Notes under the pieces: model-generated
Database searches by the model: none
Told to the model about the DNA's origin: nothing
Seen by the model: the letters and a program-made list of their open reading frames with translations, nothing else
Shown: positions 45,027-64,000 of the stretch, in pieces
Layout of the letters: every line of letters starts with the position of its first letter
Numbering within the stretch: the first letter of the stretch is position 1
Assembly (NCBI RefSeq): GCF_002261225.1
Contig: NZ_NEVM01000002.1
Span: 1,302,001 to 1,366,000, forward strand
Length of the DNA stretch: 64,000 nucleotides
Direction of reading: 5' to 3'
DNA from: Bordetella genomosp. 10
GTDB taxonomy: Bacteria > Pseudomonadota > Gammaproteobacteria > Burkholderiales > Burkholderiaceae_B
Made by a program: the position numbers and the translations under genes

Positions 45027-45680
45027 ATGACATCTCTCCTGGACCGCCTGGCCTCCCTGGACACCAACACCGTGTCCGACGCCCTCGATTTCCTCGGCCT
45101 GCCCGGCGCCACCTGCGGCCTGCGCCCCTTATGGGACTGCCCGAAGGTGGCCGGACGCGCCAGCACCATCCAGCTCGGCCCCAAGCGCGACGACCGGCCG
45201 ACGGTCCATCTCATCTCGCCGGTGATCGACGCCATCGACCGCAACGACCGCGTGCTGGTGATCGCCGGCGGACTCGACGGCATTTCCTGCTGGGGCGACA
45301 TCCTCGCCAACGCCGCCCACGCCAAGGGCATACGCGGATCGATCATCGACGGCCTGAGCCGCGACATCGAAGGCAGCGAATCCATCGGCTATCCCGTGTT
45401 CGGACGCGGCGTGACCATGATCAGCGCCCGCAATCGCGTGGTGCAGACAGGCGCGGGCGAGCCGATCACGATGGCCGGCGTCACCGTGCACGAGGGGGAC
45501 TACGTGATCGCCGACCGCTGCGGCGCCGTGTTCGTCCCGGCCGCGCACATCGACGCGGTCCTGGACCTGGGGGAACGCATCGCGCGCCGGCAGGACGGCA
45601 TGGTGGCCGCGGTGCGCCAGGGCCGGCCGGTGGCCGAGGTGATGCACGACGAGGAATTCGAAGCCATCCGGGCGCGATAA
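45027..45680 (+). CDS. RraA-like protein (HMG/CHA aldolase or RraA family), copy 1
   Basis: A 217-residue protein of the RraA/demethylmenaquinone-methyltransferase-like fold. Many members outside enterobacteria are class II aldolases for 4-hydroxy-4-methyl-2-oxoglutarate or 4-carboxy-4-hydroxy-2-oxoadipate, or oxaloacetate decarboxylases. The active-site region reads WGDILANAAHAKGIRGSIIDGLSRDIEG with the conserved DGxxRD. Binding to RNase E, as for E. coli RraA, is not indicated by context. A second homologue follows 44 bp later. Confidence 0.88.
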   Translation: MTSLLDRLASLDTNTVSDALDFLGLPGATCGLRPLWDCPKVAGRASTIQLGPKRDDRPTVHLISPVIDAIDRNDRVLVIAGGLDGISCWGDILANAAHAKGIRGSIIDGLSRDIEGSESIGYPVFGRGVTMISARNRVVQTGAGEPITMAGVTVHEGDYVIADRCGAVFVPAAHIDAVLDLGERIARRQDGMVAAVRQGRPVAEVMHDEEFEAIRAR

Positions 45681-46411: not shown

Positions 46412-46506
46412 GACGGCCGCATCCGGCGGCAGCGATGACGCGGCGCCGCCGCATCGAACGCCGTACCGAACACCGTGGCAAACACGGAAAAACAAGAGGA
46501 GACACC

Positions 46507-47520
46507 ATGAATACCCGCCCCATCACGACCAGGCTGCCGCGCATCGCGGCCGGCCTGTTCCTCTCGGCGATGACGGCCGCCGCGGCCACCGCGGCCCCGG
46601 CAAGCGCGCAGGCCGCCCCGGAATCGGCGTGGCCCGCGAAACCCATCGTCCTCGTCGTCGCCTATCCCGCCGGCGGCACCTCGGACTTGCTGGCCCGCCT
46701 GCTTTCCGCCGGGCTCAACAAGCGATTCGGCCAGCCCGTCATCGTCGAGAACCGTCCGGGCGCGGGCGGCACCATAGGCACCGAGTACGTCAGCCGGGCC
46801 AAGCCGGACGGCTATACCTTCCTGGTCGGCTCCAGCAGCCCCATCACCATCGCCGGCGCCCTGTATCCGAAATTGGGCTACCAGCCGGCGCGCGACCTGA
46901 CGGACGTCGCGCCCCTGGTGGCGACGCCCTTCTTCCTTACGGTCAATGCCGCCACCGGCATGCGCACCGTGCAGGACGTCATCGACGCCGGCAAGGGCGG
47001 CAAGCTCAACTTCGGCTCCGCGGGTTCCGGGTCGCCGCAGCACATCCTCGGCGAAATGTTCAATACCGCCACGCATACCCGCTTGCAGCACATTCCCTAC
47101 AAGGGTTCCGGTCCCTTGCTCACCGACCTGGTGGGCGGCCAGGTGCAGCTCACCTTCGAAAGCCCCGTCGTGGTCATGCCCCAGGTGCAGACCGGCAAGC
47201 TGAAAGCCCTGGCCGTGACCGGCGAGGCGCGCACGCCGCTGTTTCCCGACATTCCGACCTTCAAGGAACTGGGCGTGCACGGCCTGGAGGCCCAGCCCTG
47301 GTACGGCGTATTCGGCCCTGCCCGCCTGCCGCCGGCGATCGCCGGCAAGATGAACGAAGCAGTGCAGGACATCCTGCGCCAGCCCGACGTGCAGGCAGGC
47401 CTGCGCACCCTGGGCGCGGACGCCATGCTGATGGATCCGGCCCCGTTCAAGGCCATGGTCGACCGCGACATCGCGACCTGGTCCAGCGCGGTGAAGAAGG
47501 CCGGCGCGACCATCGACTGA
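46507..47520 (+). CDS. Bug/TctC-family substrate-binding protein
   Basis: A 337-residue periplasmic binding protein. It has a Tat- or Sec-type signal (MNTRPITTRLPRIAAGLFLS, cleavage near AQAAP), then IVLVVAYPAGGTSDLLAR, VIVENRPGAGGTIGTEYVS, KPDGYTFLVG and GLEAQPWYGVFGPARLPP. GGAG lies 5 nt before the ATG at 46507. It is last in the rraA-rraA-bug block under the divergent LysR regulator. Confidence 0.94.
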   Translation: MNTRPITTRLPRIAAGLFLSAMTAAAATAAPASAQAAPESAWPAKPIVLVVAYPAGGTSDLLARLLSAGLNKRFGQPVIVENRPGAGGTIGTEYVSRAKPDGYTFLVGSSSPITIAGALYPKLGYQPARDLTDVAPLVATPFFLTVNAATGMRTVQDVIDAGKGGKLNFGSAGSGSPQHILGEMFNTATHTRLQHIPYKGSGPLLTDLVGGQVQLTFESPVVVMPQVQTGKLKALAVTGEARTPLFPDIPTFKELGVHGLEAQPWYGVFGPARLPPAIAGKMNEAVQDILRQPDVQAGLRTLGADAMLMDPAPFKAMVDRDIATWSSAVKKAGATID

Positions 47521-47651: not shown

Positions 47652-48146
47652 ATGTCGCATTCCTCGTCACGCCTTCGGCGCGTGCTGGTTGCCTGGCTAT
47701 ACGCCGTGGCCTTGGGCCATCTGGCCGTCAGCCTCTTCCTGACCTGGGGCGGCCACGCCGCCGTGGTGACCGACTATCTGGCCACCGTCGGGCACGCGCT
47801 GCGGCCTGACGCCGCGCCCGCGCAGGAACAGGCGCTGCAACGCTGGTGGCTGGCCCTGTTCGGCGCGACCCTGCAGAGCTATTCCCTGTTCATGCTGGCG
47901 CTGGTGCACCTGGGCAATACCTTGCGCGCGCCCGCCGCCTGGCTCGGCCTGATGGCGGGCGTGCTGCTCTGGGCGCCCCAGGACATGCATCTGTCCATCG
48001 CTTCGGGCGTCTGGATCAATCTCTGGTTCGACGCCGCCGCTCTGCTGGTCCTGCTGCCGCCCCTGGCCTGGCTGTACCGGCACGACCGCCGGTGCATCGG
48101 CACATCCCCCGTCTCCCCTCTCCCGCATCGCCCCGACCATGGCTGA
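47652..48146 (+). CDS. Membrane protein of unknown function (164 aa)
   Basis: Four hydrophobic segments: LVAWLYAVALGHLAVSLFLTW, LALFGATLQSYSLFMLALVHL, AAWLGLMAGVLLWAP and LWFDAAALLVLLPPLAWLY. The end is short, basic and His-rich. It overlaps the next gene by 8 bp, so it is translationally coupled to the membrane-epimerase fusion. No Shine-Dalgarno is clear. I do not recognise a named family; the topology suggests an inner-membrane scaffold or small-molecule handling protein. Confidence 0.7.
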   Translation: MSHSSSRLRRVLVAWLYAVALGHLAVSLFLTWGGHAAVVTDYLATVGHALRPDAAPAQEQALQRWWLALFGATLQSYSLFMLALVHLGNTLRAPAAWLGLMAGVLLWAPQDMHLSIASGVWINLWFDAAALLVLLPPLAWLYRHDRRCIGTSPVSPLPHRPDHG

Positions 48147-49581
48147 TTTCTCCGTGCTGACCCTCGCGCTCGATCTGCTGATCATCCAGGCGATCCTCGG
48201 CGCCCTCGACACGATCTACCACCATGAGCTCACCGTCGCGCTGCCCTATCGCCGCAGCGCGCGACTGGAGCTGAGCATCCACGCCATGCGCTCCTGCTTC
48301 TACGGCGTGCTGTTCCTGGGCATCGCGCACCGGGCCTTCCAGGGCGGCTGGGCCGTCACGGTGGCCGTGCTGTTCTCCCTCGAAATCTGCCTGACGCTGT
48401 GGGATTTCGTGATCGAGGACCGCAGCCGCAAACTGCCCGCCATCGAACGCATCATGCACACCGTGCTGGCCATCAACGCGGGGGCCTTCTTCGCGCTCTA
48501 CGGCATGCAGCTATGGGCCTGGTCCCACCTGCCCACGGCGCTCGCGCCCCTGGACCTGGGCTGGCGCGGCTGGGTGCTGACGCTGTTCGCCATCGGCGTC
48601 ACCGCTTCCGGCATACGCGACGGCGTCGCCGCCCTGCGCCTGCGACGCCAGCGGCCGCGCGCGAATCCCTTCGCCGGCCTCGGCCACCAGCGCGTGCTGG
48701 TGACGGGCGGCACCGGCTTCATCGGCGAACAACTCGTCGCGCAACTGCTGGAGGCTGGCCATGCGGTCACCCTGCTCACGCGCGATCCCTTGCGCGCCGC
48801 CTACCAGTTCGACGGCCGCGCCCGTTGCGTGCGCGATCTCGGCCAGCTCGCCGCCGCCGACGCCTACGACGCCGTCATCAACCTGGCCGGCGCGCCGATC
48901 GCCGGCGGCCCATGGCGCCCCGGGCGCAAGGCCAAGCTGCTCGCCAGCCGGATCCGCACCACCGAAGCCCTGCTGCAATGGCTCGCGCGCGCCGCGCACA
49001 AGCCCGCGCTGTGGGTGCAGGCCTCGGCCATCGGCTACTACGGCGTGCGCGATCCGGAGGAGCGATTGGACGAGAACGCCGCCCAGGGCGAAGGTTTCAT
49101 GGCGGAGCTGTGCGCCCGCTGGGAAGCGGCCGCGCGGCCGGCGGCGGCCATGGGCGTGCGCCAGGTGACCTTGCGCCTGGGCATCGTCTTCGGCGCCGGC
49201 GGCGCGCTGCTGCCCTTGCTGATTCCCTTTCGCCTGGGCGTCGGCGGCCGCATGGGCGACGGCCGCCAGATCATGAGCTGGGTGCATCGCGACGACGTCA
49301 CGCGCGTGATCGCCCATGCCTTCGAGGACCCCGCCATGCGAGGCGCCTACAACCTGGTGGCGCCCGACGCCGTCAGCCAGGCGGTTTTCGCCGAGCGCGT
49401 CGGCAAGATCCTGCGGCGGCCGGTCTGGCTGCACGTACCCGCGCGCCCCGTGCGCGCGATCGCGGGCGAGATGGCGCAATTGTTCTTCGACGGCCAGCGC
49501 GTCGTGCCGAACCGGCTGACCGCGGGCGGCTACACCTTTCTCTACCCCACCCTGGATCTCGCGCTGCGCGATGTCGTCTGA
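48139..49581 (+). CDS. Membrane domain fused to a TIGR01777-type NAD(P)-binding epimerase
   Basis: A 480-residue two-part protein. Residues 1-170 form about four transmembrane helices (LALDLLIIQAILGALDTIYHH, FYGVLFLGIAHRA, WVLTLFAIGVTASGIRDGV). Residues 178-480 are an extended-SDR/YfcH-like domain with the cofactor motif VLVTGGTGFIGEQL, LAGAPIAGGPWRPGRKAKLLASRI, SAIGYYGVRD and the WVHRDDV region. The usual YfcH homologues are soluble and about 300 residues, so membrane tethering is unusual. It overlaps its upstream neighbour by 8 bp, and the next gene begins 9 bp downstream. Confidence 0.85.
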   Translation: MADFSVLTLALDLLIIQAILGALDTIYHHELTVALPYRRSARLELSIHAMRSCFYGVLFLGIAHRAFQGGWAVTVAVLFSLEICLTLWDFVIEDRSRKLPAIERIMHTVLAINAGAFFALYGMQLWAWSHLPTALAPLDLGWRGWVLTLFAIGVTASGIRDGVAALRLRRQRPRANPFAGLGHQRVLVTGGTGFIGEQLVAQLLEAGHAVTLLTRDPLRAAYQFDGRARCVRDLGQLAAADAYDAVINLAGAPIAGGPWRPGRKAKLLASRIRTTEALLQWLARAAHKPALWVQASAIGYYGVRDPEERLDENAAQGEGFMAELCARWEAAARPAAAMGVRQVTLRLGIVFGAGGALLPLLIPFRLGVGGRMGDGRQIMSWVHRDDVTRVIAHAFEDPAMRGAYNLVAPDAVSQAVFAERVGKILRRPVWLHVPARPVRAIAGEMAQLFFDGQRVVPNRLTAGGYTFLYPTLDLALRDVV

Positions 49582-49590
49582 GAACGCGGC

Positions 49591-52080
49591 ATGACCAAGC
49601 CCCTGCTATACCTGCTGGCCGGCAACGGCAGCGCCACCGACTGGTGGGACGATGTCCTGCCCTGCTTCCGGCGCTATGAGGCCCGCCCGCTGGAACTGCC
49701 GGGCTTCGGCGACAATCCCCTGCCGCCATGCGCCGATCTTGCCGAGTATGCGCGAGCGCTGCTGTCCATGACGGAACGGGGCCACGCCATCGTCGCCGTG
49801 GGCGTCAACGCCCTGCTGGTCCTGCACGCGCTGCAACGGCAACCCGGCCATTTCTCGCGGACGGTGCTGCTGGCGCCGGTCGGCGCCTTCCTGTGGCAAC
49901 GGCGCCTGCCGGCCTTGATGGCGCCCCTGCCGCTGCGCAAGACCGTGCACTGGCTACTGTCGCGCCGGCCGGCCCTGTTCGCCCGCAAGTTCTCGCGGCA
50001 GCGCTGGACCGGCGAGCAATACCGCCGCATGGGCCGCGGCTACGCGCGCTGCCGCGCCTTCGTGCCGCACTGGGACCTGGTGCGGCCGGACACCGCCCTG
50101 CCCCTGCTGGAATGGGTGCGCGATCCCATCGAACTGGTCTGGGGCGACCAGGACCGGATGCTGGGCGTCGCGCAGGCGGCCGCCTGGTCCGCCATCCTGG
50201 CGCGGGCGGAACTGACCGTCAGCCTGCAACGAGGCTGGGGCCACTATCCCTGGATCGACGCGCCAGCCGAATTCGCCGGCTGGCTGGAATCGGGACCGCC
50301 GGCGCGCGGTTTCATCGCGCACACCAAGGGCGGACGGCTGCGGCTCGCCACCCTGGCGGGACAACCCGTACCGCCGGCGATCACCGTGACGGACCCGGGC
50401 GACGCGCGCTTGCCGGGGCTGTTCGCCGATCATCCCAACGCCGCCTGGGCGGTGCGTTCGTCCAGCCACACGGAAGACCAGGCCGATGCCGCCAACGCGG
50501 GCCTGCATACCACCTACCTGCGCGTGCCGGCCGCCGACGTGCCGGCGCGCATCGCCGACCTGCGCGCCAGCGGCGTCGAAGAAGCGGTGGTGCAGCGCTA
50601 CGTCGCGCCGGCGCTTTCGGGCATCGCCTTCGTGCGCCACGTGGCGGTGGAACTGGAATGGGTCGAGGGCCATCTGGAAGGCCTGGCCGACGGCACCGCC
50701 ACGCCGCGGCGCGCCGTGCTGTCGCCGCTGGGCGAGGCCTGGCGCGAAGGCGCGTTCTCGGCGTCCCACGGCTTGACCGCGGCCGCGCTGTGGCGTTTCC
50801 TGCAATCCGTATTGCGCACCTTCCACTATGTCCATGGCGATATCGAATGGGCGTGGGATGGACGGCAATTGTGGCTGCTGCAATACCGTCCCATCAGCGC
50901 CTATCCCTGGCGGCGCAACCTGACCTCCGCCAACATCGGCGAAATCCTGCCGCCGCGCCCCAGCCGGCTGACCGAATATGCCCAGCGGCGCGCGGCGGGC
51001 AGCATTCCCGCCATCATGGCGCGCTGGGATGCGCGCGTCCTGATGGACAACGAACCCTTCACCGCGACCTTCGCCGGCGCGTCCTATATCAACAGCGACC
51101 TGTTCCTGGCGCGCATGGCCGACTGGGGCATGTCGTCGCGCGGCTATGCGGCGGAGATAGGCGGCTCGGCGCCGCGCCTGCCCTGGCGTCCGCTGCGGCT
51201 GCTGCGCTCGCTGCCGCTGTTCGCGCGCATGCAGCGGCGCGCCCGCGCGCACCTGTACACGCTGGAGGCAGGACTGCGCCGCCATGACGACGAACTCAGC
51301 GGGCTGATCGCGCAAGGCGCGGACGGACAGCAACTGGCCGACTGGTTCACGCGCTTCTACGTCTTCGTCGTGCAGGGCAACCTGTGCATCGCCTCGGCGC
51401 TGGCCGGCAGCGGCGGCGACATGCTGGGACGCCCGGCCACGGCCTACGGCGATCTCGCGGACAGCCCGCACCGGGTGCCCTACGAAGCCGATCCGGCGTC
51501 GCCGCGGCCCGCGCTCGCCGCGCTGCCATTGCAGGCCTTTCCCCGATGGCCGCGCCTGATCGGGCTTGCCCATGCCTTGGGACTGCCCGGCATGCGCGGC
51601 TACTACCTGCAGGTGCGCGAGTGGTATCGCGACAACCTGATGCGGGTGTGCTTCCGCCTGCACCACGCCATGCCCGCGGCCGACCGCGCGCACTGGTTCG
51701 CGCCGCACGAGGACAGCCGCGACCGCCAGGGCAGCTTCTGGCAGGACGGGCGCGAGAGCGCGGAGCGGGCCGCCGGCTTCATGATCTACCCGGGGCGGGT
51801 GCGAGGCACGCTGGGCGCGGACATCCTGCTGGTGGATGCGCTGGAGCCCGGCATGTATGCCCGCTACCAGGCGGCGCGCGCCGTCATCGCGCGCATGGGC
51901 GGGCGCCTGTCGCACGGGTCGACGCTGTTGCGCGAACTGCGCAAGCCGTCGGCGGTGCTGCCGGACGTGGATCCGTCGTGGTTGGGCAGGACGGTGCTGT
52001 ACGAGGATGGGAAACTGGCGCTGGTCGACGAGGCCGGCGAGGCTGGCGACGGCGCCGGACAGGCTGGCGCGGCGTCCTAG
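49591..52080 (+). CDS. Alpha/beta-hydrolase fold fused to a PEP-synthase/rifampin-phosphotransferase-like protein
   Basis: An 829-residue multidomain protein. Residues 1-232 resemble an alpha/beta hydrolase, with the late Asp (VWGDQDRM) and His (GWGHYPW). The nucleophile elbow reads G-V-N-A-L, so Asn73 replaces the usual Ser. Residues about 235-435 look like a shortened ATP-grasp (PPDK-N) domain: GQPVPPAITVTD, WAVRSSSHTEDQADAANAG and the terminal LLQYRPIS. A long helical middle part follows. Residues about 740-820 resemble the swivelling phosphohistidine domain, with His775 in GGRLSHGSTLLREL. It is the third gene of a unit with a membrane protein and a membrane-epimerase fusion. Function unknown. 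A phosphotransfer or ligase-like reaction on a small molecule is inference. Confidence 0.8.
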   Translation: MTKPLLYLLAGNGSATDWWDDVLPCFRRYEARPLELPGFGDNPLPPCADLAEYARALLSMTERGHAIVAVGVNALLVLHALQRQPGHFSRTVLLAPVGAFLWQRRLPALMAPLPLRKTVHWLLSRRPALFARKFSRQRWTGEQYRRMGRGYARCRAFVPHWDLVRPDTALPLLEWVRDPIELVWGDQDRMLGVAQAAAWSAILARAELTVSLQRGWGHYPWIDAPAEFAGWLESGPPARGFIAHTKGGRLRLATLAGQPVPPAITVTDPGDARLPGLFADHPNAAWAVRSSSHTEDQADAANAGLHTTYLRVPAADVPARIADLRASGVEEAVVQRYVAPALSGIAFVRHVAVELEWVEGHLEGLADGTATPRRAVLSPLGEAWREGAFSASHGLTAAALWRFLQSVLRTFHYVHGDIEWAWDGRQLWLLQYRPISAYPWRRNLTSANIGEILPPRPSRLTEYAQRRAAGSIPAIMARWDARVLMDNEPFTATFAGASYINSDLFLARMADWGMSSRGYAAEIGGSAPRLPWRPLRLLRSLPLFARMQRRARAHLYTLEAGLRRHDDELSGLIAQGADGQQLADWFTRFYVFVVQGNLCIASALAGSGGDMLGRPATAYGDLADSPHRVPYEADPASPRPALAALPLQAFPRWPRLIGLAHALGLPGMRGYYLQVREWYRDNLMRVCFRLHHAMPAADRAHWFAPHEDSRDRQGSFWQDGRESAERAAGFMIYPGRVRGTLGADILLVDALEPGMYARYQAARAVIARMGGRLSHGSTLLRELRKPSAVLPDVDPSWLGRTVLYEDGKLALVDEAGEAGDGAGQAGAAS

Positions 52081-52433
52081 GCCGGCGGCGAGTAAGACAC
52101 CGGCGGCGGTTGGCCGCCCTGGTCGTCGCGGGTGTAATAGTCGACGCCGCTCAGGGCGAACATGATGACCAGCATCAGGCCCGCGAGCGCGCAGACCAGG
52201 CGGGGCACCGCCTGGGGCGCGGCCAGGTGCATGAAGAAGACGCCGATCAATACGGCCTTGATCCCGGCAATGAGGATGTTCAGCGGCATGTTGAGGCTGC
52301 CCAGGGGAATGTAGGCGGTGCCCACCGTCAAGGCCGCCAGGAACAGCAGCAGCGCCCATATCGCCAGCAGTCGCCGCCGGCGGCGGCGCAAGCCGTCATC
52401 CAGGATTTGGGATTCGGGATTCTCGATCTTCAT
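52077..52433 (-). CDS. ctaF: Cytochrome c oxidase subunit IV
   Basis: A 118-residue membrane protein of the CoxIV/CyoD type with three helices ([64 protein letters not shown]). The conserved GVFFMH pattern is present. It is the last gene of the oxidase operon and starts in an ATGA overlap with subunit III. Its stop codon overlaps the stop of the convergent fusion gene by 3 bp in a CTAG sequence. Confidence 0.88.
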
Positions 52434-53062
52434 GATGCGCGTCCCGCCAGATAAAGGATGGGAAACAGGAAAACCCATACCGCGTCGACGAAATGCCAGT
52501 ACAGGCCCACGATCTCCAGGCGCCGGGCCCACGGCGTCCCCGGCGCGCGGCCGCCCGACGCCAGGATGTAGGAAACCAGGGCCAACCCGACGATCATATG
52601 CACCGCGTGCATGCCGGTGGCGACGAAATAGACGAAGAAGAACAGGCGCATGCCCCCTGCCGAATCGGCCCCGGCCGCGTGGAAGGCCGCGGTGGGGAAC
52701 AGGCCTGCCCCGGCATCCTTGGCGTATTCGAAGCCCTTGATGGCGAGGAAGACGCCGCCGAGGAGCAGCGTCAGCCACAGCAGGCGCCTGGCCCGCGACG
52801 GCACGCCCGCGTGGCCATATTCGACCGCCAGCGCGATGGCCGCGCTGCTGCTCAGCAGGACCATGGTGTTGATGGCGCCCAGAGTAACGTCGGTCAGGCG
52901 GCTGGCCGCCGAAAAGGCCTCCAGATGATGGAAGCGCCCGATGGCGTAGGCGAAGAAGACGGGCCCGAAGAACATCGCTTCCGACGCCAGGAACACCCAC
53001 ATCGCGAGCCGCGATTTGTAGGCATGCAGGACGTCGGATGCCGAAAGCGCCGCTTCGCTCAT
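52430..53062 (-). CDS. ctaE: Cytochrome c oxidase subunit III
   Basis: A 210-residue subunit with five predicted helices. It shows the family segments [41 protein letters not shown] and the C-terminal [23 protein letters not shown]. The ATG at 53062 has GGAG 9 nt upstream. It is the only gene of the operon separated from its upstream neighbour by a real gap (73 bp), and that gap contains a dispersed repeat. Confidence 0.95.
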
Positions 53063-53077
53063 GGTGTGCCCTCCTGT

Positions 53078-53132
53078 CGCTTCGCTCCCCCCTCCCCGAG
53101 GGAGGATTCGCGCTTGGGGCGGCCCGGCGCGC
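53078..53132. repeat. Type-C dispersed repeat in the coxA-coxC gap
   Basis: CGCTTCGCTCCCCCC, TCCCCGAGGGAGG and ATTCGCGCTTGGGGCGG read in order. A diverged copy lies inside the ABC ATPase gene (39531-39579). It fills nearly the whole space between the subunit I stop and the subunit III start. Confidence 0.65.
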
Positions 53133-53135
53133 TCA

Positions 53136-54776
53136 TCACTCGTTCCCCCGTGAGTAATCGTAGGGATCATGCCCACCGTCAGGAGGCGTGTCGAAGTTCT
53201 GCGTGGGCGGCGGCGAACGCGTCTGCCATTCCAGGCCGGTGGCGCGCCAGGGATTGGGACCGGCGGGCTCGCCCCGGAACCAGGACCAGAGCAGGTAGCA
53301 CAGCGGCAACACGTAGCCGACGGCCAGCACCGCCGCGCCCAGCGAGGAGACGACGTTCAACGCCTGGAATTCCGGGGGATAGGCGTGGTAGCGGCGCGGC
53401 ATCCCTTCATATCCCAGGATGTATTGAGGAAAGAACGTCAGGTTGAAACCGATGAAGATCGTCAGCGCGGCAATGCGTCCCAAGGTTTCCGGATACCGTC
53501 GTCCGCTGATCTTGGGCCACCAGAAGTGCACGGCCCCCAGATAGGCCATGACCGCGCCGCCCACCATGATGTAGTGGAAATGGGCCACGACAAAATAGGT
53601 GTCGGTGACGTGCACGTCGATCGCCAGCGTCGCCAGGAACAGCCCGGTGAGTCCGCCCACCATGAACAGGCCGACGAACCCCAGCGCGTACAGCATGGGC
53701 GCCTCGAAGGTGATCGACCCTTTGTACAGGGTCGCCGTCCAGTTGAAGACCTTGATCGCCGACGGCACCGCGACCAGGAAGCTGAGGATGGAGAAAGTCA
53801 TATTCGCGTACACCGATTGCCCGCTGACGAACATGTGGTGGCCCCACACCAGGAAGCCGATGACGGCGATGCCCAGGATGGCGTAGGCCATGGTGCGGTA
53901 GCCGAAGACGCGCTTGCGCGCGAAGCAGGGAATGATCTCGCTGGCCACGCCCATCGCGGGCAGCACCATGATGTAGACGGCCGGATGCGAGTAGAACCAG
54001 AAGAGATGCTGGAACAGCAGCGGATCGCCGCCCAGCGCCGGATCGAAGAAGCCGATGCCGAACAGGCGCTCGGCGGCCAGCAGCAGCAAGGTAACGGCCA
54101 GCACGGGCGTGGCCAGTACCAGGATGATGCTGGTCGCGTACAGCGCCCACACGAACAGCGGCATGCGGAACCAGCCCATGCCCGGCGCGCGCATGGTATG
54201 GACCGTGACGATGAAGTTCAGTCCCGTCAGGATGGAGGAAAAGCCCACGATGAATACGCCGAACAAGGTGACGATCACGTGGCTGTGGGAAAACATGCTG
54301 GAGAACGGCGTATAGAACGTCCAGCCCGTGTCCACGCCGCCCAGCACCAGCGCGGCGAGCGTGAAGCAGCCGCCGATGACGTAGAGATACCAGCTCATGA
54401 GGTTCAGGCGGGGAAACGCCAGGTCCTCCGCGCCCAGCATCAGGGGCACCAGGAAATTGCCCAGGACGGAGGGGATGGAGGGAATCAGGAACATCCAGAC
54501 CATGATCACGCCATGCGCCGTGAACAGTTTGTTATAGGTGTCGGCGCTGACCAGGTCCCCCTGCGGCGTGACCAGTTCCAGGCGCATCAGCGCCGCCGCG
54601 CAGCCGCCGAGCACGAAGAATGCCGTGATGCTGAGCGCATACAGGATGGCGATGCGCTTGTGGTCGCGCGTCAACAGCCAGGAACGCAAGGTGTGGCCGG
54701 CGTTCAGATACGTGCGCACGGCCGGCGACGCGGGCAAGGGGGATGCCGGCGCGGCCGGCCCGGGAATGGTGCTCAT
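53136..54776 (-). CDS. ctaD: Cytochrome c oxidase subunit I (A2-type, caa3)
   Basis: A 546-residue catalytic subunit with 12 or more helices holding low-spin haem, haem a3 and CuB. Ligand regions are present: [38 protein letters not shown] and [16 protein letters not shown]. The helix VI motif reads YSHPAV, in which the Glu of A1 oxidases is replaced and Tyr/Ser precede the His. This is the hallmark of A2-type enzymes such as caa3. It starts at ATG 54776 in an ATGA overlap with subunit II. Confidence 0.96.
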
Positions 54777-55720
54777 CGCGGCGGCGCCTCCTTGGGCCGG
54801 TTGGAGCGCAGGTACTGCACCAGCGCCATCAGGTCCGATTCGCTGAACTGGCCGGCGAAGGACGGCATGACGGGGGCATAGCCGGCGACGACATCCTTGC
54901 CCGGCTCCAGGATGGAATCTCGGATATAGGTCTCGTCGGCGACGACGACGCGGCCGTCCTGCAGGAACACCCGCCGGCCGAACAGGTTCGTCAGGTCCGG
55001 CGCATGGACCGTGGAGCGGGCATCGTGGCAGCCCGCGCAGCCGTGTTCGCTGAACAGCCGGTAGCCGCGCTCGGCCAGGTCGGGTCCCGCCCTGCCCTGC
55101 GCCGCCCATTGGCGGTACTGTTCCGGCGGCATGGCGACGATGCCCCCGCCCATGGACGCATGGTCGGTCCCGCAGAACTCGGCGCACAGCAAATGATAGG
55201 TCCCGGCCTTGGTCGCCGTGAACCAGATGGCGGTGTAGCGTCCGGGAACCACGTCCTGCTTGATGCGAAACGCCGGCACGTAAAAGCTGTGGATGACGTC
55301 CTGCGACGTCATGAGCAGGCGCACGGGTTGGCCCACCGGCACGTGCAGTTCATCTATCTCGCGCGTGCCGTCTTCGTGCTCCAGCGTCCAGACCCACTGC
55401 TTGGCGACGACGTAGACCGGCATCGCGCCGGCGGGCGCGCGCGTCAAGGCCGCGTAATCGTAGGCGCCCCACAGGAAAAGCCCGATGAATATCAGCAACG
55501 GCGCGATCGTCCAGGTCCATTCCAGGCCGTTGGCGTGGTCCGGCGCCCGGCTGCGATCCGCCGTGGAACCGCGCCGGTAGCGCACGCAGAAAACGATGGC
55601 CAGCACGGTCAGCGCCAGGGCCATCGTCCCCGCCACGCCGACAAGGGTCAGGAAAAGATGGTCGGTGCCCGGCGCCACCGACGACGCCGCGACCGGCAGC
55701 AGGAATGGCGTATCGCTCAT
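54773..55720 (-). CDS. ctaC: Cytochrome c oxidase subunit II with fused cytochrome c domain
   Basis: A 315-residue subunit with two N-terminal membrane helices. The CuA domain carries the site in [18 protein letters not shown]-terminal cytochrome c domain contains the haem motif CAGCH and a later Met in PVMPSFAG. The fused haem c makes this a caa3-type oxidase that can accept electrons directly from the Act complex encoded upstream. It overlaps the SCO and subunit I genes by 4 bp each. Confidence 0.96.
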
Positions 55721-56529
55721 GCGCGCCTCCCGTTCCCGCGCCGGCGGCAGCGCAGCATCCAGAGCCCCATCGCCAGGACGGCCAGCGTACCCAGGCCCGC
55801 CGCCCGCGCCATCGTCATGGCGGCGACGCTATAGCGGCCCGTCCGGGGGTCATAGTGGGAGCACAGCAGGATCAACTGGTCCGCCAGGCCGCCCACTTTT
55901 CCGCCCGAGGCCTCCACCAGGGCCAGCCGCACGTCGCGCGCGGACTGGCCGACGCCCAGCAGGTAGCGGGAGATGCGCCCTTGCGGGGTCAGGACGAGAA
56001 AGCCCGCCGGATGCAGGTATTGGCCGGTCGCGGGGTCGCGCCGGTAGGGAAAGCCGGCGGCGTCGGTCAACGCGGCGATGGCGGGCGCGGAGGCCGTCAG
56101 CAAGTGCAGACGGCCACGTTGTCCCGCGGGCATCAGGCTGGCGTAGTACGGGTATTTGCGCGCGGCGTCGGCCGGAGTCTCCGCCGGATCGATGCTGACG
56201 GCGACCACCTCATGGGGGACGTCGACGGTCTGCAAGGTCTGGAGCACGGAATCCATGAGCGTCGAACAAAGCACAGGACAGCGGTAGTAGCCCAGCACGA
56301 AGATCACGGGCCGCCGGCCCAGATAATCGGACAATCCCCTTTCCTGCCCCTGCGCATCGCGCAAGCCCTGGACCATGGGCATCATCCGTCCCGGATGCTG
56401 GCGGAAGGCGAAGTCGGAGGCATCCAGCCCGGCGGCCAGGTCCGATGAAGCGAACGACGGCCCCGCGCCGGCGAGACCGAGCAGCAGCGCCGCGATCCAG
56501 CGTCTCATTGCCGCACTTCTCGTGGTCAT
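55717..56529 (-). CDS. SCO1/SenC-family copper chaperone
   Basis: A 270-residue periplasmic thioredoxin-like protein anchored by an N-terminal signal segment and a C-terminal helix (GLGTLAVLAMGLWML). The copper site is intact: CPVLC (CxxxC) and the His in YLHPAG. It delivers copper to the CuA site of subunit II, encoded next to it. The start at 56529 is fixed by an ATGA overlap with the preceding small gene. Confidence 0.94.
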   Translation of the reverse strand: MTTRSAAMRRWIAALLLGLAGAGPSFASSDLAAGLDASDFAFRQHPGRMMPMVQGLRDAQGQERGLSDYLGRRPVIFVLGYYRCPVLCSTLMDSVLQTLQTVDVPHEVVAVSIDPAETPADAARKYPYYASLMPAGQRGRLHLLTASAPAIAALTDAAGFPYRRDPATGQYLHPAGFLVLTPQGRISRYLLGVGQSARDVRLALVEASGGKVGGLADQLILLCSHYDPRTGRYSVAAMTMARAAGLGTLAVLAMGLWMLRCRRRGNGRRA

Positions 56530-56843
56530 GGCCGCGCTCCTTGAACGAGCGCCTGCATCGCGACGTCCAGCGGGACGCGGGCGATGCCGCGTGCGCGGTC
56601 GACCCAGGCGTAGCCGTCGAGCAGCTTGCGCTTGCCGGCCAGGTAGCGGGCCATGTCCACCTGCGGTTCGGTCTCCAGCAAAGGGCCCTTGACCCAGGCC
56701 GCGGGCGGCGTCGAGGCCGACGGCGGATGGTCTCCGTCCCAGCGCGAGGTCAGCAGCATGGCGGCCGTCACGACCGCCGCAAGGACGACCAGTCCTCCCA
56801 GACCGATGCGGACGACGCTGCGCACGCGAATGCCGTCATGCAT
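56526..56843 (-). CDS. Small membrane-anchored protein of the Act/oxidase operon (105 aa)
   Basis: One N-terminal transmembrane helix (IGLGGLVVLAAVVTAAMLL) is followed by a periplasmic tail with a conserved-looking amphipathic stretch (DMARYLAGKRKLLDGYAWVDRARGIARVPLDVAMQAL). It overlaps actF by 8 bp and the SCO gene by 4 bp, so it is a genuine operon member. The tail pattern VDRARGIARVPLDVAM resembles proteins often found beside SCO in such operons. No function is assigned. Confidence 0.8.
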   Translation of the reverse strand: MHDGIRVRSVVRIGLGGLVVLAAVVTAAMLLTSRWDGDHPPSASTPPAAWVKGPLLETEPQVDMARYLAGKRKLLDGYAWVDRARGIARVPLDVAMQALVQGARP

Positions 56844-57975
56844 GATCCGCCTCCTGTTCCGGCCGCGCGGTGGATGGCGACGGCGCCGGCGGCAATCGCG
56901 CGGGAAAGCACATGACGGCGCCCCGCACCAGCAAGCCCATACCCAGCCAGGCGAGGACCGTCATCCATGCGGCCTGTCCGCCGAGGCCCTCGATCGAGGG
57001 AAATATCCACCATGCGATCTCGCACGCGCCGACCATGAGCAGCAGCAACGACAGCCCGCGCAGGCATGCCGCATCGCGCTTGAAACCGCGCGACAGCAGG
57101 ACGGCCAGCGGCAGCGCCAGCCCCAGCAGCGCCAGCCCCAGGGCGACGCCGGCCCACGGTCCCGCCACACGCGGCAGATACCAGGAGATTTCCGCCGGCA
57201 GGTTTTCCGCCCAGATGATCTGGAATTGCGTGAATGCGATGTAGGACCAGGTCAGCACGTACATCAGCAGCAGGTTTCCCAGATCGCCGCGCGTCTCCGG
57301 GGCGGCAATGCGCGCGCCCCGATACGCCGCGGCCGCCATGGCCATCTTCAGTTGTGCCACCAGCACCACGAGGCCGAAGGCCGTCGAATACCAGGGCGGC
57401 GTCAGGGACATCAACAAGTCGACCGCGGCGAGGCTGATGCTGACGGCGTAGAGCGCCAGGCCGGCGGCCGCATAGCCCTGCCGCCGCGCCGCCGTGCCGC
57501 CCCGGCCGTCCAGGCATGCCAGCACGGACCAGAGAAGGACGTAGATCACGATTCTTCCCATGAATCCCGAAGGTTGAAGCCAGGCGCCACGGAACACAGT
57601 CTCTTTCGCGGCGTCGACCCAGTCGGGACGCGCCCAGGGATACAGCGCGCGCAGGCAGGGAAAGACGGGAAGGATGAGTATGGCCAGGGCCGGCGTTCCC
57701 GCGCGCAGGCGGCTCAAGGTGTCCGCGATGGGCGCGAGCCAGCGGCCGCCGGTCAGGCGCTGCATCCACAGCGTGGCCTGCGCGCCGAGGGCCAGGCCCG
57801 CCCAGAACCACCAGGCCGCCAACCAGGCCGCGCCGAAGGCTCGCTTGTCCGCGATCAATCCGTACGCGCAGAGCGGCAACGCAAGAATCCCGCCGGCGGC
57901 CAGCAGGAGAACGCCATGGCGCAGTGGCGTGGCGCCCGGACGCGCCAGTTGGCGGAGCAGCCGCGGCGTCTTCAT
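56836..57975 (-). CDS. actF: Alternative complex III subunit ActF (NrfD-like membrane protein)
   Basis: A 379-residue inner-membrane protein with about ten helices, smaller than ActC. Segments such as HGVLLLAAGGILALPLCAYG, GFMGRIVIYVLLWSVLACL, YVLTWSYIAFTQFQIIWAENLPAEISWY and the C-terminal helices match ActF of quinol:electron acceptor oxidoreductase complexes. It overlaps actE by 4 bp and the next small gene by 8 bp. Confidence 0.92.
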   Translation of the reverse strand: MKTPRLLRQLARPGATPLRHGVLLLAAGGILALPLCAYGLIADKRAFGAAWLAAWWFWAGLALGAQATLWMQRLTGGRWLAPIADTLSRLRAGTPALAILILPVFPCLRALYPWARPDWVDAAKETVFRGAWLQPSGFMGRIVIYVLLWSVLACLDGRGGTAARRQGYAAAGLALYAVSISLAAVDLLMSLTPPWYSTAFGLVVLVAQLKMAMAAAAYRGARIAAPETRGDLGNLLLMYVLTWSYIAFTQFQIIWAENLPAEISWYLPRVAGPWAGVALGLALLGLALPLAVLLSRGFKRDAACLRGLSLLLLMVGACEIAWWIFPSIEGLGGQAAWMTVLAWLGMGLLVRGAVMCFPARLPPAPSPSTARPEQEADHA

Positions 57976-58850
57976 GGAAGGCTCCCCGGCTTGGCGTGGC
58001 CGGCGGCGGGCGATTCCTGTCCTTTGGGACCGTCGCTTGTGCCTGTCCCTGCTGTGCCTGTCCCTGCTGTGTCTGCCTCTGCTGCCTTTGTCATGCCAGC
58101 CCCTGTGCCCGTATCCACGCCTGCTTTCGTGTCCGCCCCTGCGCCGGCGCGCGCCAAGCCGTCCCGGACGGCGTCCCGCATCGCCGGCGGCAAGGTATCC
58201 GGCGTGGCGTGCTGGCTCAGTTGCAGCGCGCGGACGAAGGCGACGATGGCCCAGCGGTCCGCGGGTTCGATGCGGTTGCCGTACGCGGCCATGACGCCAT
58301 AGCCATTGCTGATCACGTCATAGAAATGCCGGTCCGGCGCGGCGCGCAGGCGATCGCTGTGATACGTGGGCGGCGCCGGGAAGCCCCGCTGGACGATACG
58401 CCCGTCGCCATCGCCCACTGGACTATGGCAAGGCATGCAATACACCCCGTAGAGGGTCTGTCCATGGCGCAGCATCGCCGGCGTGATCGGATCGGGCAAC
58501 GCCGTGGCGGCCTGCGCCCGCTGGTCGTCATCGACGCCGGCCGTGCCGTTCCTGCCGCTGCTCGTGTCCGCCTCGCTGCCGCGGGCGTAGGCCTGGACGC
58601 CGGGCGGCGGCGTGCGGGACAGGGCGCCGTCCGGGAACAGCGTCCCCGCCTTGTAGGGTTTGCCGCGTGGCTGGTCGTACATATTCTGCGCGGCGCGTTC
58701 GCAACCGGCCAAGGCCAACACGGCGAGCAGCGCCAGCGCCGGACCCAAGGCGCCGAGCGATCGCCGGCCCCGTGCCCGCTCGCCCGTCCCCGTCCTGCGA
58801 ACAGGACCGCCCGGCGACGGGCGGCGCGGCCATTTCGCCTCGCGCCTCAT
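57972..58850 (-). CDS. actE: Alternative complex III subunit ActE (monohaem cytochrome c lipoprotein)
   Basis: A 292-residue exported cytochrome. The start at 58850 is fixed by an ATGA overlap with actCD. The N-terminus carries basic residues, then a lipobox (LAVLALAGC). The ActE signature [20 protein letters not shown] follows, with the haem motif CMPCH and a later Met region ([12 protein letters not shown]). The last 50 residues are low complexity (Gly/Thr/Ala-rich), encoded partly by 15-bp tandem repeats (58038-58082), and are absent from the core domain. Confidence 0.92.
58038..58082. repeat. 15-bp tandem repeats in the 3' part of actE
   Basis: TGTGCCTGTCCCTGC occurs twice exactly (58038-58052, 58053-58067), then a degenerate third unit. 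On the coding strand it yields repeats of AGTGT. Confidence 0.7.
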
Positions 58851-60811
58851 AGCGGCACCTCCCGTATCGCCAGGGCTTCCTGGCCCTCCAGCACCGCACG
58901 GGCGGCCTGGCAAGCCCGATCGCCCTGGACGGCCTTCTCCGGCAGGCGCAGGCACAGGAAGAAGCGGTCGCGGCTGGCAAGATCGAAATCCGGCGCGTCG
59001 AACAGCGGATGGTTCAGGCGCGGCAGGCCGTTCGCCCACAGCATGCCGAGCACGGCGCAGACCGCCGCGCAAAGGATGGTCATTTCGAAGGCAATGGGAA
59101 TGAACAGGGGCCAGCTATGCAGCGGCCGGCCGCCGACGTTGATGGGGTAGTCCAGCGTGGCGGAATACCACTGCATGGCATAGCCGATGACGCCGCCCAG
59201 GACGCCGCCCGCCAGCGCCGCGCGCGGGACCGAGCGGTTCTCCCCGTAGCCCACGGCCTCGGGCAGGCCGGGCACGGGGAACGGCGCGTAGGCCTCGAGC
59301 GTGAAGCCGCCACCCGCCCGCGCCTGCCGCGCGGCTTCCAGCAAGGCCTCCGGGGTCCTGAACTCGGCGATCAGACCGTACAGGCGGGACGGCAGTCCGG
59401 TGGCCGGGACTTTCGCCAAGCCGACGCCCCCCGCGGATATACCACCATCTTCCGCCGCCACCTCGCCCTCCTCCTCATACGCCATCTCCCGCACTTCGCT
59501 CATCGAAATCATCGGAACGAAGCGCAGGAAGAGCAGGAACAGCCAGGCAAAGAAGCCGATGGACGCCAGCAGGAAAGTCCAATCCCAAATCGTGGGATGA
59601 AAAATGCCCCAGGACGAGGGCAGGAAATCCCGATGCGTGCTCTGCACCACGATCATGAACCGCTCCATCCACATGCCCAGGTTGATGACGAGGCTCACGG
59701 CCAGCAGCCAGACGGGGCTGGTCCGTACGCGGCGCGACCAAAGCACCTGAGGAATCAGCACATTGCACAGCAGCACGGACCAATAGACCGGCGCATAGGC
59801 GCCGAACCAGCGGTCCCGGACCATGGCGATCTCGAATTCATCGCCGCCGTAGAAGGCCATGAAGACTTCCGACGCATAGCCGTAGGCGACGATGGCGCCC
59901 GTGGCCAGCAGCACGCGCGCCGCCAGCGACAGATGCCGGATGGTGATCAGGTCCTGCAGGCGGAAAACGTGCCGCAGCGGGATCGCCAGCGTCAACACCA
60001 TGGCGAATCCCGAATAAAGTGCGCCGGCCACGAAATACGGCGGAAAGATCGTGGAGTGGTACCCGGGCGTATTGCCGATCGCGAAGTCCAGCGACACCAC
60101 CGTATGCACGGATACGACCAGCGGCGTCGCCAGGCCGGCCAGCAGGAGATAGGCCGTTTCGTAGCGGGCCCAATGCCGCGCCTCGCCGCGCCAGCCCAGC
60201 GCGAACAGGCCATAGACGATCCGCCTGGCCCGGCGCTTCGCGCGGTCGCGCAAGGTGGCGAGGTCCGGCAGCAAGCCGACGTACCAGAACATCAGCGACA
60301 CCAGCAAATAGGTGCTGATCGCGAAGATGTCCCACACCAGGGGGCTGCGCCATTGGGGCCACAGGTCCATGCGGTTGGGATAAGGCATCAGCCAATAGGC
60401 GAACCATGGCCGCCCGAGATGCAGGATGGGAAACAAACCCGCGATGCCCGCAGCGAACAGCGTCATCGCCTCGGCGAAACGGTTGATGGAGGTGCGCCAT
60501 TTCTGGCGCAGCAACAGCAGCACGGCGGAAATGAAGGTGCCGGCGTGCCCGATGCCTATCCACCAGACGAAGTTCGCCAGCGCGAAGCCCCAGGCCACGG
60601 GAATGTTCACGCCCCACAGGCCCACGCCCCTGTAGAACAGCCAGGCGCTGGCCCCGAACAGCGTCAGGGTCGCGGCGGAGGCGAGCAGGAACAGCGTGCG
60701 CCAGCGCCAGTGGGCCCGCCAACCGGCGCGGAAACCCGCGCCGCGCCCCCGTCCGCGCGCCAGCACGATGTCGGAGATGCGGTCGGTGATGCTGGCGTAG
60801 GTGTCAGGCAT
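58847..60811 (-). CDS. actC: Fused ActC-ActD subunit of alternative complex III
   Basis: A 654-residue fusion. Residues about 1-465 are the ActC/NrfD-like quinol-binding membrane protein, with ten helices including [49 protein letters not shown] and [20 protein letters not shown]. After an acidic linker, residues about 490-654 are the ActD (DUF3341) domain ([33 protein letters not shown], two helices, then [26 protein letters not shown]). In most described Act operons these are separate genes. It overlaps actB by 8 bp and actE by 4 bp. Confidence 0.94.
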
Positions 60812-63800
60812 CGTCGGGCTCCAGGCGGGCGGCGCGGTCTTCGCGGCGCGCCAGATAGCGCGTGCGCGGCCGCGTATTCAGCTCTTCCAGCAAGGCATAG
60901 GCGCGGGGCGAGGCGCGGCTGGCGGCGACCTGGCTATCCGGGTCGTTGAGATTGCCGAAGACGATGGCCTGCGTGGGACAGGCGGCCTGGCAAGCCGTGA
61001 CGACCTCGCCGTCGCGCAGTTCGCGGTTCTCCTTCTGCGCCTGGATGCGCGCGCGGCTGATGCGCTGGACGCAATACGTGCACTTCTCCATCACGCCCCG
61101 TTGGCGCACCGTGACGTCGGGATTCTGATGCGCGGCGGCGGCCTCGCCGTGATCCGCGAAGTCGAAGAAATTGAAGCGGCGCACCTTGTAGGGACAGTTG
61201 TTGGAACAGAAGCGCGTTCCCACGCAGCGGTTGTAGACCTGCGCGTTCAGTCCTTCCGAATCGTGCACCGTGGCGCCCACCGGACAGACCGCTTCGCAAG
61301 GCGCGTCCTCGCAATGCATGCACGGCACGGGCTGGAACAGCGTGTCTTCGTCCTCGCGATAGACGTCGACGCGTATCCAGTGCATGACCCGGCCGCGCAT
61401 CACCTGCTCCGCGCCCACCACGGGAATGTTGTTCTCGGCCTGGCAGGCGACGGTGCAGGCATTGCAGCCTATGCATTGGTCGAGGTCTATGGTCATGGCC
61501 CAGGCGTAGTCCGGATAATCGACCTTCGGATAAAGCGACGGCGGTTCGGGGGTCGGCGCGAGCGGCGGCGCGCTCAGGTCTTCGACGCGGACGATGTCGC
61601 GGCCGTGCATGGACATCTCCGTCTGGACATGCGCGTAGGCATGGCGGCGCCCGGTGCGCGCCAGGACCGCCTGCACCGTGGGCAAGGGGTCGCCCCGCGC
61701 ATCGCAGTCCTGCAGAGCATAGGCGTCCACGCCCACGCCGGTTCCCACGCTGCCCGCGTTGCGCCGGCCGTAGCCGAGATGCAAGGTGACCACGCCTTCG
61801 GCATGGCCGGGCAGGACGTGAACGGGCGCATCCACGCCGGCGTCGCGCGACACGGCCGTCAGCGTGACGACGTCGCCGGTGTCGAGTTGGTATTTGCGCG
61901 CCGTGTCAGGTCCCATGAAGGCGGCGTTGTCCCACGTCAGGCGCGTCAACGGCCGCGGCAATTCCTGTAGCCAGGCGTTATTGGCCATGTCGCCGGCGCC
62001 GAGATAGGGATCGGGCAGCAGTTGCACCGTCAATTGCGCCGTCGGTTGCACTGTCACGCTTGGCTGTGAGGCTGGGCTGTCATCCGACGAGGCTGCCGGC
62101 TTTCCCAGGGTGGCAGTGGGCGTAGCCAATACAGCCGGAGCAGTCGGAGCAGTGGAAACAATGGGAGCAGCAGCATCTGGAGCCTGTGCATCAGGAGCCC
62201 GCGCATCTGAAGCCCGCGCATCGGGGGCGTGCGCGTCCGCCACGTCGGCCTGCCCCGCCATGTCGACGTAGCCGTTGCGCAGCGCAGCCTGCCACCGTTG
62301 CTCCAACTCAGGGGTCCAACCGGAGGCACCTCCCCATCGCGCCTGCCAGGTTCGCTTCACCACCGCCAGCGCATCCGGATCCTCGCCATCCACCAGCACC
62401 TGCAACACCGTGTGCGGCGATATCCCGCCGTGCAGCGGCGCAATCATGGGCTGCTGGATCGTCGCCGTCCCATCCCAGGCGAGCGCATCGCTCCATGTCT
62501 CGAGCTCATGCGCGCGCGGCACGTGCCACGCGCAGGCGCGCGCCGTCTCGTCGCGATAGAGGCCGACGTGCATGGACCACGGCACCCGCCGCAGCGCATC
62601 GGCGAACGCTGCCTTGCCGGGCGCGTCGTAGACGGGGTTGACGTCCAGCACCATCAAGGTCTCCACGTCGCCGGCACGCATCGCCTCGACCAGCGCGCCC
62701 AGTCCGGCGGGAGACCGCACGGAGACGGGCGTGACGAACTTGCCTACCGCGCCCAGGCGCGCATTGATGGCCCACGCCAGCGCGTGCGCCTCGGCCGGGA
62801 GCGAGGGCCCCGCGACAAGCACCGCATTCCCTACACCCCCGCGCAGAAGATCGACGAGGCGATGCGCCCACGAAGGCCATGCAGGCGTGACGTCGCCGTG
62901 TCCGTGTGCATCATCGCCGTGTCCGTGTGCATCTCCATGTGTTTCCCCACGTTCGTCCTCATTCCCATCCCCCTTCCCATTCGCCGCGCCGCCCACGCCC
63001 AACTCCGCTGCCAGCCATTCGACCAGCCCGCCCATTTCCGCGGGGTTCATGGGCCAGCGCTGATCCGCCATCGCGCCGGTCAATCCCGGCATGGCTTCGA
63101 TCGCGTACAGCCGCGTCCGCGCCTCGGCCCGCGGCTCGCCCCGTCCGCGCGCGAACTCGCGGGCCAGGCGCACGCCCGCCGGCGTATCGACGAAGATATC
63201 CGCCCCCAGCGTCACGACGACACGCGCGTGTTCCAGGCGATACATGGGCTGCGCGGGCCGCCCCAATGCGCGCCTCGCGCCCTCCTCGGCCGCCGCCGGA
63301 TACGCGGGGTCATGCCGATGCCAGCGCATCCCCGGATACCGCGCAGCCAGCGCATCCAGTTGCCGCAGCAAGGTCGGCGACGTGACATGGCCCGTCAATA
63401 CGCGCAGTCCGGCGCCGCCGCGAGCCGCCATCGCCGCGCGCCGCGCCAGCAACGCTTCCCGCGCCGCATCCCAGCCGGACACTGCTTCTCCTCGCCGCAC
63501 CATGTCCGACCGGTCCGGATCCCACAACTGCCAAAGCGCTGCCTGCGTCCGTGCATCGGTAGACCCCATGCTCATCGGATGGCGCGGATTGCCCTCGATC
63601 TTGGTCGGCCGGCCATCGTGCGTCTCCACCAGCACCGGCAGCGCGTAGCCCGCCCGCGTCACCGCCGAGGCATAGAACACGGGATCGTTGCCAGGCCCGC
63701 CTTCGGGCATGTGCGCGTACGGCACGATCGCTTCCTCCGGCGGCCCGCTGCACCCCGCCCCCGCCAGCGCCGTGGCCACCGCCATCCATTTCAGCAAGAC

Positions 63801-63911
63801 GCGCCGGGAGGGGCTGGCGGGCGCATCCGGCGCGCCGCCGGCCGCGGCCTCCCCTGCCTGGGAGCCGTGAACGGGAAGGATGGGTATCGTCCGCGGGCGG
63901 TCCATGGTCAT
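60804..63911 (-). CDS. actB: Alternative complex III subunit ActB (molybdopterin-like plus iron-sulfur protein)
   Basis: A 1035-residue periplasmic-facing subunit. The N-terminus has a twin-arginine-like [10 protein letters not shown] and a lipobox-like LAGAGC. The large first part resembles a molybdopterin oxidoreductase that has lost its cofactor. The C-terminal third is a four-cluster ferredoxin-like domain ([55 protein letters not shown] and [13 protein letters not shown]). Two lineage-looking insertions are present: a His-rich segment ([16 protein letters not shown]) and an Ala/Asp/Pro repeat ([15 protein letters not shown]). The start at 63911 overlaps the actA stop. Confidence 0.94.
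62173..62232. repeat. Four 15-bp tandem repeats in actB
   Basis: Units begin GCATC at 62173, 62188, 62203 and 62218 and encode five-residue repeats of the type DAxAP on the minus strand. They extend into a longer Ala/Pro/Thr-rich linker. Confidence 0.75.
62893..62933. repeat. 21-bp tandem repeat encoding a His-rich segment in actB
   Basis: TCGCCGTGTCCGTGTGCATC is repeated exactly at 62893-62912 and 62914-62933. On the coding strand each unit gives D-A-H-G-H-G-D, producing the only His-cluster in the protein. Confidence 0.75.
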
Positions 63912-64000
63912 CGATGACAGGTCGTGCAACTGGTCATGCGCGCCTCGCTTTCGAAATGAAAGACGCGCTGCAAGGTGGCGACGTCGGCGTCGGACAGGGG
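63908..64000 (-). CDS. actA: C-terminal end of alternative complex III subunit ActA (partial)
   Basis: The last 30 residues of a multihaem cytochrome c run in from the right edge and stop at TGA 63910-63908, overlapping the actB start (ATGA). The fragment reads PLSDADVATLQRVFHFESEA, then [10 protein letters not shown]. It therefore ends with a complete CxxCH haem motif (CTTCH) one residue before the stop, as expected for the last haem of ActA. The rest lies outside the window. Confidence 0.85.
   Translation of the reverse strand, partial: PLSDADVATLQRVFHFESEARMTSCTTCHR

Follow-up and report, generated by a model that had tools for sequence, protein, structure and literature searches.

Architecture and Distribution of the Fusion Protein

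The forward strand of a 64,000-nucleotide stretch of the Bordetella genomosp. 10 genome (the window) contains at positions 49591..52080 a gene for an 829-residue protein that joins an alpha/beta-hydrolase fold to a dikinase module resembling rifampin phosphotransferase (RPH). The gene is the last of a three-gene operon, behind genes for a membrane protein and a dehydrogenase. A three-part architecture consisting of a hydrolase-like N-terminus, an ATP-grasp domain and a swivelling phosphohistidine domain had been proposed from the DNA letters alone (the sequence-only reading). Our analysis confirmed this fusion, and the motifs quoted in its favor are present in the order given. The hydrolase fold spans residues 1–238 (49591..50304, + strand, like the rest of the operon). 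It is followed by a shortened ATP-grasp (PPDK_N) domain (residues 239–436, 50305..50898), a central domain that is mostly helical in the structure model (residues 437–728, 50899..51774) and the swivelling phosphohistidine domain (residues 729–815, 51775..52035).

Both phosphotransfer profiles expected from this architecture matched the product above their Pfam cut-offs: PPDK_N (PF01326) with 37.4 bits (cut-off 27) and PEP-utilizers (PF00391) with 27.1 bits (cut-off 23.1) at residues 744–789. The latter domain was also recognized by hhalign (94.6%). Only 40 residues follow the PEP-utilizers match, and the protein ends past the His domain without the barrel that binds phosphoenolpyruvate (PEP). 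With the His domain at the C-terminus and no barrel, the domain order is that of RPH, not that of PEP synthase. An assignment as PEP synthase or PPDK was rejected on this ground and because the NCBIfam scores fall far below cut-off.

Among about 5.8 billion proteins searched (E up to 0.001), 197 matched. The 120 homologues listed are all full-length fusions with 64–98% identity over 97–99% of the query; the closest named ones among the matches listed come from Achromobacter aloeverae (98%) and then Bordetella sp. N (86%). Since the protein searches admitted only lengths of 0.55 to 1.75 times that of the query, these homologues could not include short unfused pieces. A profile search with the homologue alignment listed no protein beyond those of the first search, and literature searches covering open-licence articles without their supplements returned no paper on this fusion. 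Residue 138 of one homologue (L042) corresponds to an unread base, not to a stop; another stretch (L110) held only an antisense-looking frame and was dropped.

Within the genus group of Pseudomonas protegens, 79 of 398 sampled genomes contain a match with an E value of 1e-50 or lower. The match is split in two pieces in three genomes of this group (G379, G382 and G406), as if the gene were broken, and in a fourth (G645) it starts at a contig end. Across the class of a Burkholderia, where the search was limited to two scored candidates per genome, some match was found in 46 of 369 genomes, but the whole protein only in the centre genome; the others are short-domain matches. This distribution marks an accessory gene of certain genera; its product is conserved as an accessory protein among Pseudomonas-type bacteria.

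Conserved Phosphotransfer Residues

Conservation was counted in 121 sequences, namely the window protein and the 120 listed homologues. K246, R289, T308, E419, R433, R676, E677 and H775 are identical in all of them, and Q431 in 120; those from K246 to R433 lie in the ATP-grasp domain, R676 and E677 in the central domain. A study on Listeria RPH (PMC4844700) assigns Lys22, Arg117 and Thr136 to the ATP site, Arg666 and Glu667 to the second transfer and His825 to the transport of the phosphate. The same study states that pyruvate is no substrate and that a change of Glu297 did not abolish activity. The counterparts of Lys22, Arg117, Thr136 and His825 do not vary among the 121 sequences. The second domain is a PPDK_N-type ATP-grasp with the predicted catalytic Lys, Arg and Thr. 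E419 may correspond to RPH Glu297, but this residue counts for little because the Listeria enzyme, by the account cited above, stays active when it is changed.

The R289-S290-S291 motif (RSS) is kept in all 121 sequences, as is His775, the predicted phosphate carrier (codon 51913..51915), so that none of the listed homologues lacks either of these signatures. The ATP-grasp part had been described as looking shortened, and it does contain about 50 residues fewer than RPH between Lys and Arg. Two residues before the His, where PEP synthase carries a regulatory Thr, all 121 sequences have Leu (L773).

In a global alignment, R676-E677 falls on the motif REYPKY of Streptomyces RPH, in a region of low alignment confidence. 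The spacing from this Arg to the His in Streptomyces RPH is 159 residues, the same as between positions 666 and 825 of the Listeria enzyme, so REYPKY very probably is the Arg666-Glu667 site. Because of the low confidence, the mapping of R676-E677 onto this site is a lead only.

The Hydrolase-Fold Domain

The N-terminal domain has the alpha/beta hydrolase superfamily fold, which is that of esterases. A phmmer comparison with PDB sequences matched residues 3–229 to an alpha/beta hydrolase (E 3.8e-7), NCBIfam gave a match to BioH below cut-off, and PF00561 stands in the precomputed annotation of many listed homologues. Pfam reported no hydrolase domain in the window copy at E up to 1. By motif (GVNAL), the position of the expected nucleophilic Ser is residue 73 (codon 49807..49809), which is Asn in the window protein; the family has Asn in 86, Ser in 32 and Gly in 3 sequences. 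The window protein thus has none of the usual elbow nucleophiles (Ser, Cys or Asp) at this position. D188 (WGDQD) and H218 (GWGHYPWID), also assigned by motif, are invariant in all 121 sequences. A tree built by a quick method from 97 rows (80 loci, the window and 16 of the 120 listed homologues; 85 Asn, 11 Ser, 1 Gly) requires at least 5 changes to account for Ser. All Ser and Gly rows come from Pseudomonas; the other sampled lineages have Asn.

A varying nucleophile next to an invariant Asp188 and His218 makes it probable that the main task of this domain is something other than ordinary hydrolysis. The mean majority fraction is 0.834 for the hydrolase fold, compared with 0.803 for the ATP-grasp, 0.842 for the central and 0.848 for the His domain. 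Being as conserved as the others, the domain is probably needed, though probably in a role other than that of a serine hydrolase. Given Asn73 here and Asn in the majority of homologues, the name hydrolase is valid for the fold only: the sequence-only reading was right about the fold of the N-terminus, but the domain is probably not a working hydrolase.

Operon Partners and Neighborhood

The first gene of the operon (47652..48146, +) encodes a 164-residue protein of an unnamed family which, by hydropathy, is a membrane protein with three hydrophobic segments; neither Pfam nor NCBIfam matches it at E up to 1. The second gene (48139..49581, +) encodes a 480-residue dehydrogenase of the TIGR01777 family (YfcH/ThyD-like; NCBIfam 308.9 bits, cut-off 207.35). 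Its N-terminal part is hydrophobic, with two hydrophobic segments before residue 90. The two genes share an 8-bp overlap, and the fusion gene begins about 10 bp past the dehydrogenase gene.

Conservation of this arrangement was examined in the best 80 of 204 confirmed loci, all from named genomes. Searches with tblastn upstream of the fusion gene found the membrane protein in 70 of these loci and the dehydrogenase in 50: both partners in 48, the membrane protein only in 22, the dehydrogenase only in 2 and neither in 8. Classing as fused or separate covered 46 of the 50 dehydrogenase loci, as a size and position filter missed L014, L015, L060 and L070; the match in L060 amounts to a short fragment. 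Of the loci classed, 21 encode the two as one chain, in which the membrane protein takes the place of the dehydrogenase's own hydrophobic part, and 25 have the arrangement of the window. Comparison of the membrane protein with the hydrophobic part of the dehydrogenase gave no match, and a shared origin of the two was rejected for this reason. The pair can also stand without the kinase. In Cupriavidus metallidurans (L121:5621-9779) and Burkholderia arboris (L122:5219-9473), membrane protein and TIGR01777 dehydrogenase adjoin in the absence of the fusion gene, preceded by another dehydrogenase, which has a DoxX_3 domain.

Beyond the three-gene cassette, the flanks differ between lineages (as judged with an in-house gene caller, which overlooks some genes). 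A TctC-type binding protein (46435-47520, +) lies immediately upstream of the operon; farther upstream are an RraA-like protein (45027-45680) and an open reading frame (ORF), extending to 46411, that by eye looks like a second one. The region 52430-63929 on the - strand includes cytochrome oxidase genes (COX3, COX1, and COX2 with a cytochrome c domain) and, beyond these and further genes, a 1041-residue ORF with 4Fe-4S domains (60804-63929). Together, these genes resemble an alternative complex III and oxidase cluster. A link to flanking genes was rejected, as the flanks vary by lineage and the downstream oxidase genes lie on the opposite strand. A role in anti-phage defense was also discarded, as none of the three operon proteins has a PADLOC match at E up to 0.1.

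Proposed Function

The computed features, which are the domain order, the His domain by profile, the conserved phosphotransfer residues, the gene linkage and the folds of the first two domains, lead us to favor an RPH-type small-molecule dikinase that carries a usually Ser-less hydrolase fold, a reading we consider probable. The ATP-grasp domain (239–436) would bind ATP, and His775 would attack the beta-phosphate to form phospho-His775 with release of AMP and phosphate. The His domain would then swing to the central domain (437–728), presumed by analogy to bind the substrate, and phosphorylate a hydroxyl (or enol) group. The hydrolase-fold domain (1–238), with its Asp-His pair kept, presumably binds or presents the substrate, or contributes non-hydrolytic acid-base chemistry. 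The co-encoded membrane protein and dehydrogenase may supply this substrate or receive it. A role in small-molecule phosphorylation or ligation, as suggested in the sequence-only reading, is still the most economical inference; what that reading overlooked are the large central domain (about 437–728) and the partners upstream in the operon.

Every chemical step, the nature of the substrate and the functions of the central and hydrolase domains are inferred, and several observations weigh against the RPH-type dikinase. Taken by itself, the central domain matches neither the RPH group nor a Roseobacter-type group of RPH-like proteins by profile (0.1% each, scores no better than those of three shuffles used as control), and the mapping of R676-E677 could be wrong for this reason. 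The NCBIfam models for PEP synthase (TIGR01418; 27.1 bits against a cut-off of 739.75) and for rifamycin-inactivating RPH (NF041857; 19.2 bits against 999) both leave the protein well short of their curated cut-offs. In the family motif given in PMC12167813, a Thr/Ser stands eight positions ahead of the catalytic His; here this residue is Ala in 114 of 121 sequences. Finally, neither partner was found upstream in any of the eight Burkholderia loci, so the partners are not obligatory neighbors.

The extra front domain, as conserved as the rest of the protein and with Asp188 and His218 invariant despite the varying nucleophile position, could also belong to an ATP-driven ligase or condensing enzyme like PigC and RedH. 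In such an enzyme the module would phosphorylate one substrate, while the hydrolase fold would hold the second one or provide the Asp-His pair as a base; the phosphate would leave as the bond forms. NCBIfam does match RedH at residues 408–442 (E 2.1e-5) and PigC at 407–446 (E 3.4e-5), but the scores are far below cut-off (22.7 against 1350 and 21.9 against 1300), and both matches fall on the LQ.RP end of the ATP-grasp, a stretch common to PEP synthases. We regard this ligase as possible but rather unlikely. Of similarly tentative standing is a one-chain synthase that phosphorylates and then eliminates or joins. Here the RPH-like module would phosphorylate a substrate bound next to, or handed to, the Ser-less hydrolase fold, whose Asp-His pair would expel the phosphate or make the bond, and the membrane protein and dehydrogenase would complete a three-gene pathway.

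An esterase or thioesterase that works in series with the kinase would account for the esterase fold, the Ser in 32 sequences and the invariant Asp and His. Asn at this position in the window and in 86 sequences, and Gly in three, argue otherwise, and the five or more changes needed to place the 11 Ser rows of the tree look like drift between Asn and Ser, not like a kept nucleophile. Because the two residues interchange on the tree, this simple combination is disfavored and we consider it improbable. Least probable, and indeed very doubtful, is a non-enzymatic regulator or scaffold that descends from a PEP-synthase-like enzyme. PMC10948481 does report a PEP-synthase-like regulator, PspR, but a scaffold would not need the counterparts of the ATP-grasp catalytic residues and the His, which are identical in all 121 sequences.

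Comparison with Known Systems

RPH-like modules form a growing class of small-molecule kinases that act in drug inactivation and phenol catabolism, and their substrates are being discovered one at a time. The variant described here is tied to a membrane protein and a TIGR01777 dehydrogenase, a family without a clearly established function. If the protein does phosphorylate and then eliminate or join, the three genes would constitute an undescribed pathway for a lipid-like metabolite. A hydrolase fold that in most members lacks the nucleophile, retains Asp and His and is joined to a kinase in every one of the 120 listed homologues is in addition a testable case of non-hydrolytic use. BioH-type alpha/beta hydrolases share the fold and the positions of Asp and His with this domain, but use Ser as the nucleophile, where the present family mostly has Asn and is fused to a kinase module.

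In PigC and RedH, the prodiginine ligases that gave the weak match at the end of the ATP-grasp, an RPH-like module serves bond formation; these enzymes are not known to contain a hydrolase domain. Roseobacter fusions also carry an RPH-like module behind an unrelated domain. Examples from Ruegeria and Phaeobacter plasmids (L086:6318-10169 and L088:6312-10172), encoded near a metal ABC transporter, are about 1,285 residues long and contain two rhodanese stretches, a 60KD_IMP (YidC-type) membrane domain and the RPH-like module, so their N-terminal partners are unlike those of the window protein. A protein at L091 has a similar look by eye, and a Halorubrum plasmid (L116:1159-5334) carries a tandem pair of genes for PEP/pyruvate-binding domains behind a TetR-type regulator. 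A local profile alignment of the whole window protein with the Roseobacter-type group covers residues 247–817 at 99.4%. Domains aligned singly show that only the ATP-grasp (99.4%) and His (90.7%) parts carry this match, while the central domain has none.

The best structural match of the module is RPH itself (5HV1/5FBS), with the same order of ATP-grasp, central domain and C-terminal swivelling His and with Lys, Arg, Thr and His counterparts kept in the fusion protein. Alignment of the whole module ran in order over 499 residues, at a root-mean-square deviation of 12.4. The fusion differs by its additional N-terminal domain, its shorter ATP-grasp and a central domain not recognizable by profile. 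The two-component phenol dikinases HpeHI, CreHI and PpsAB follow the same plan as RPH and have the motif T/SXXGGXXXH (PMC12167813); the present family mostly has Ala in place of its Thr/Ser. These kinases distribute the plan over two chains, whereas the fusion protein is a single chain with a hydrolase domain in front.
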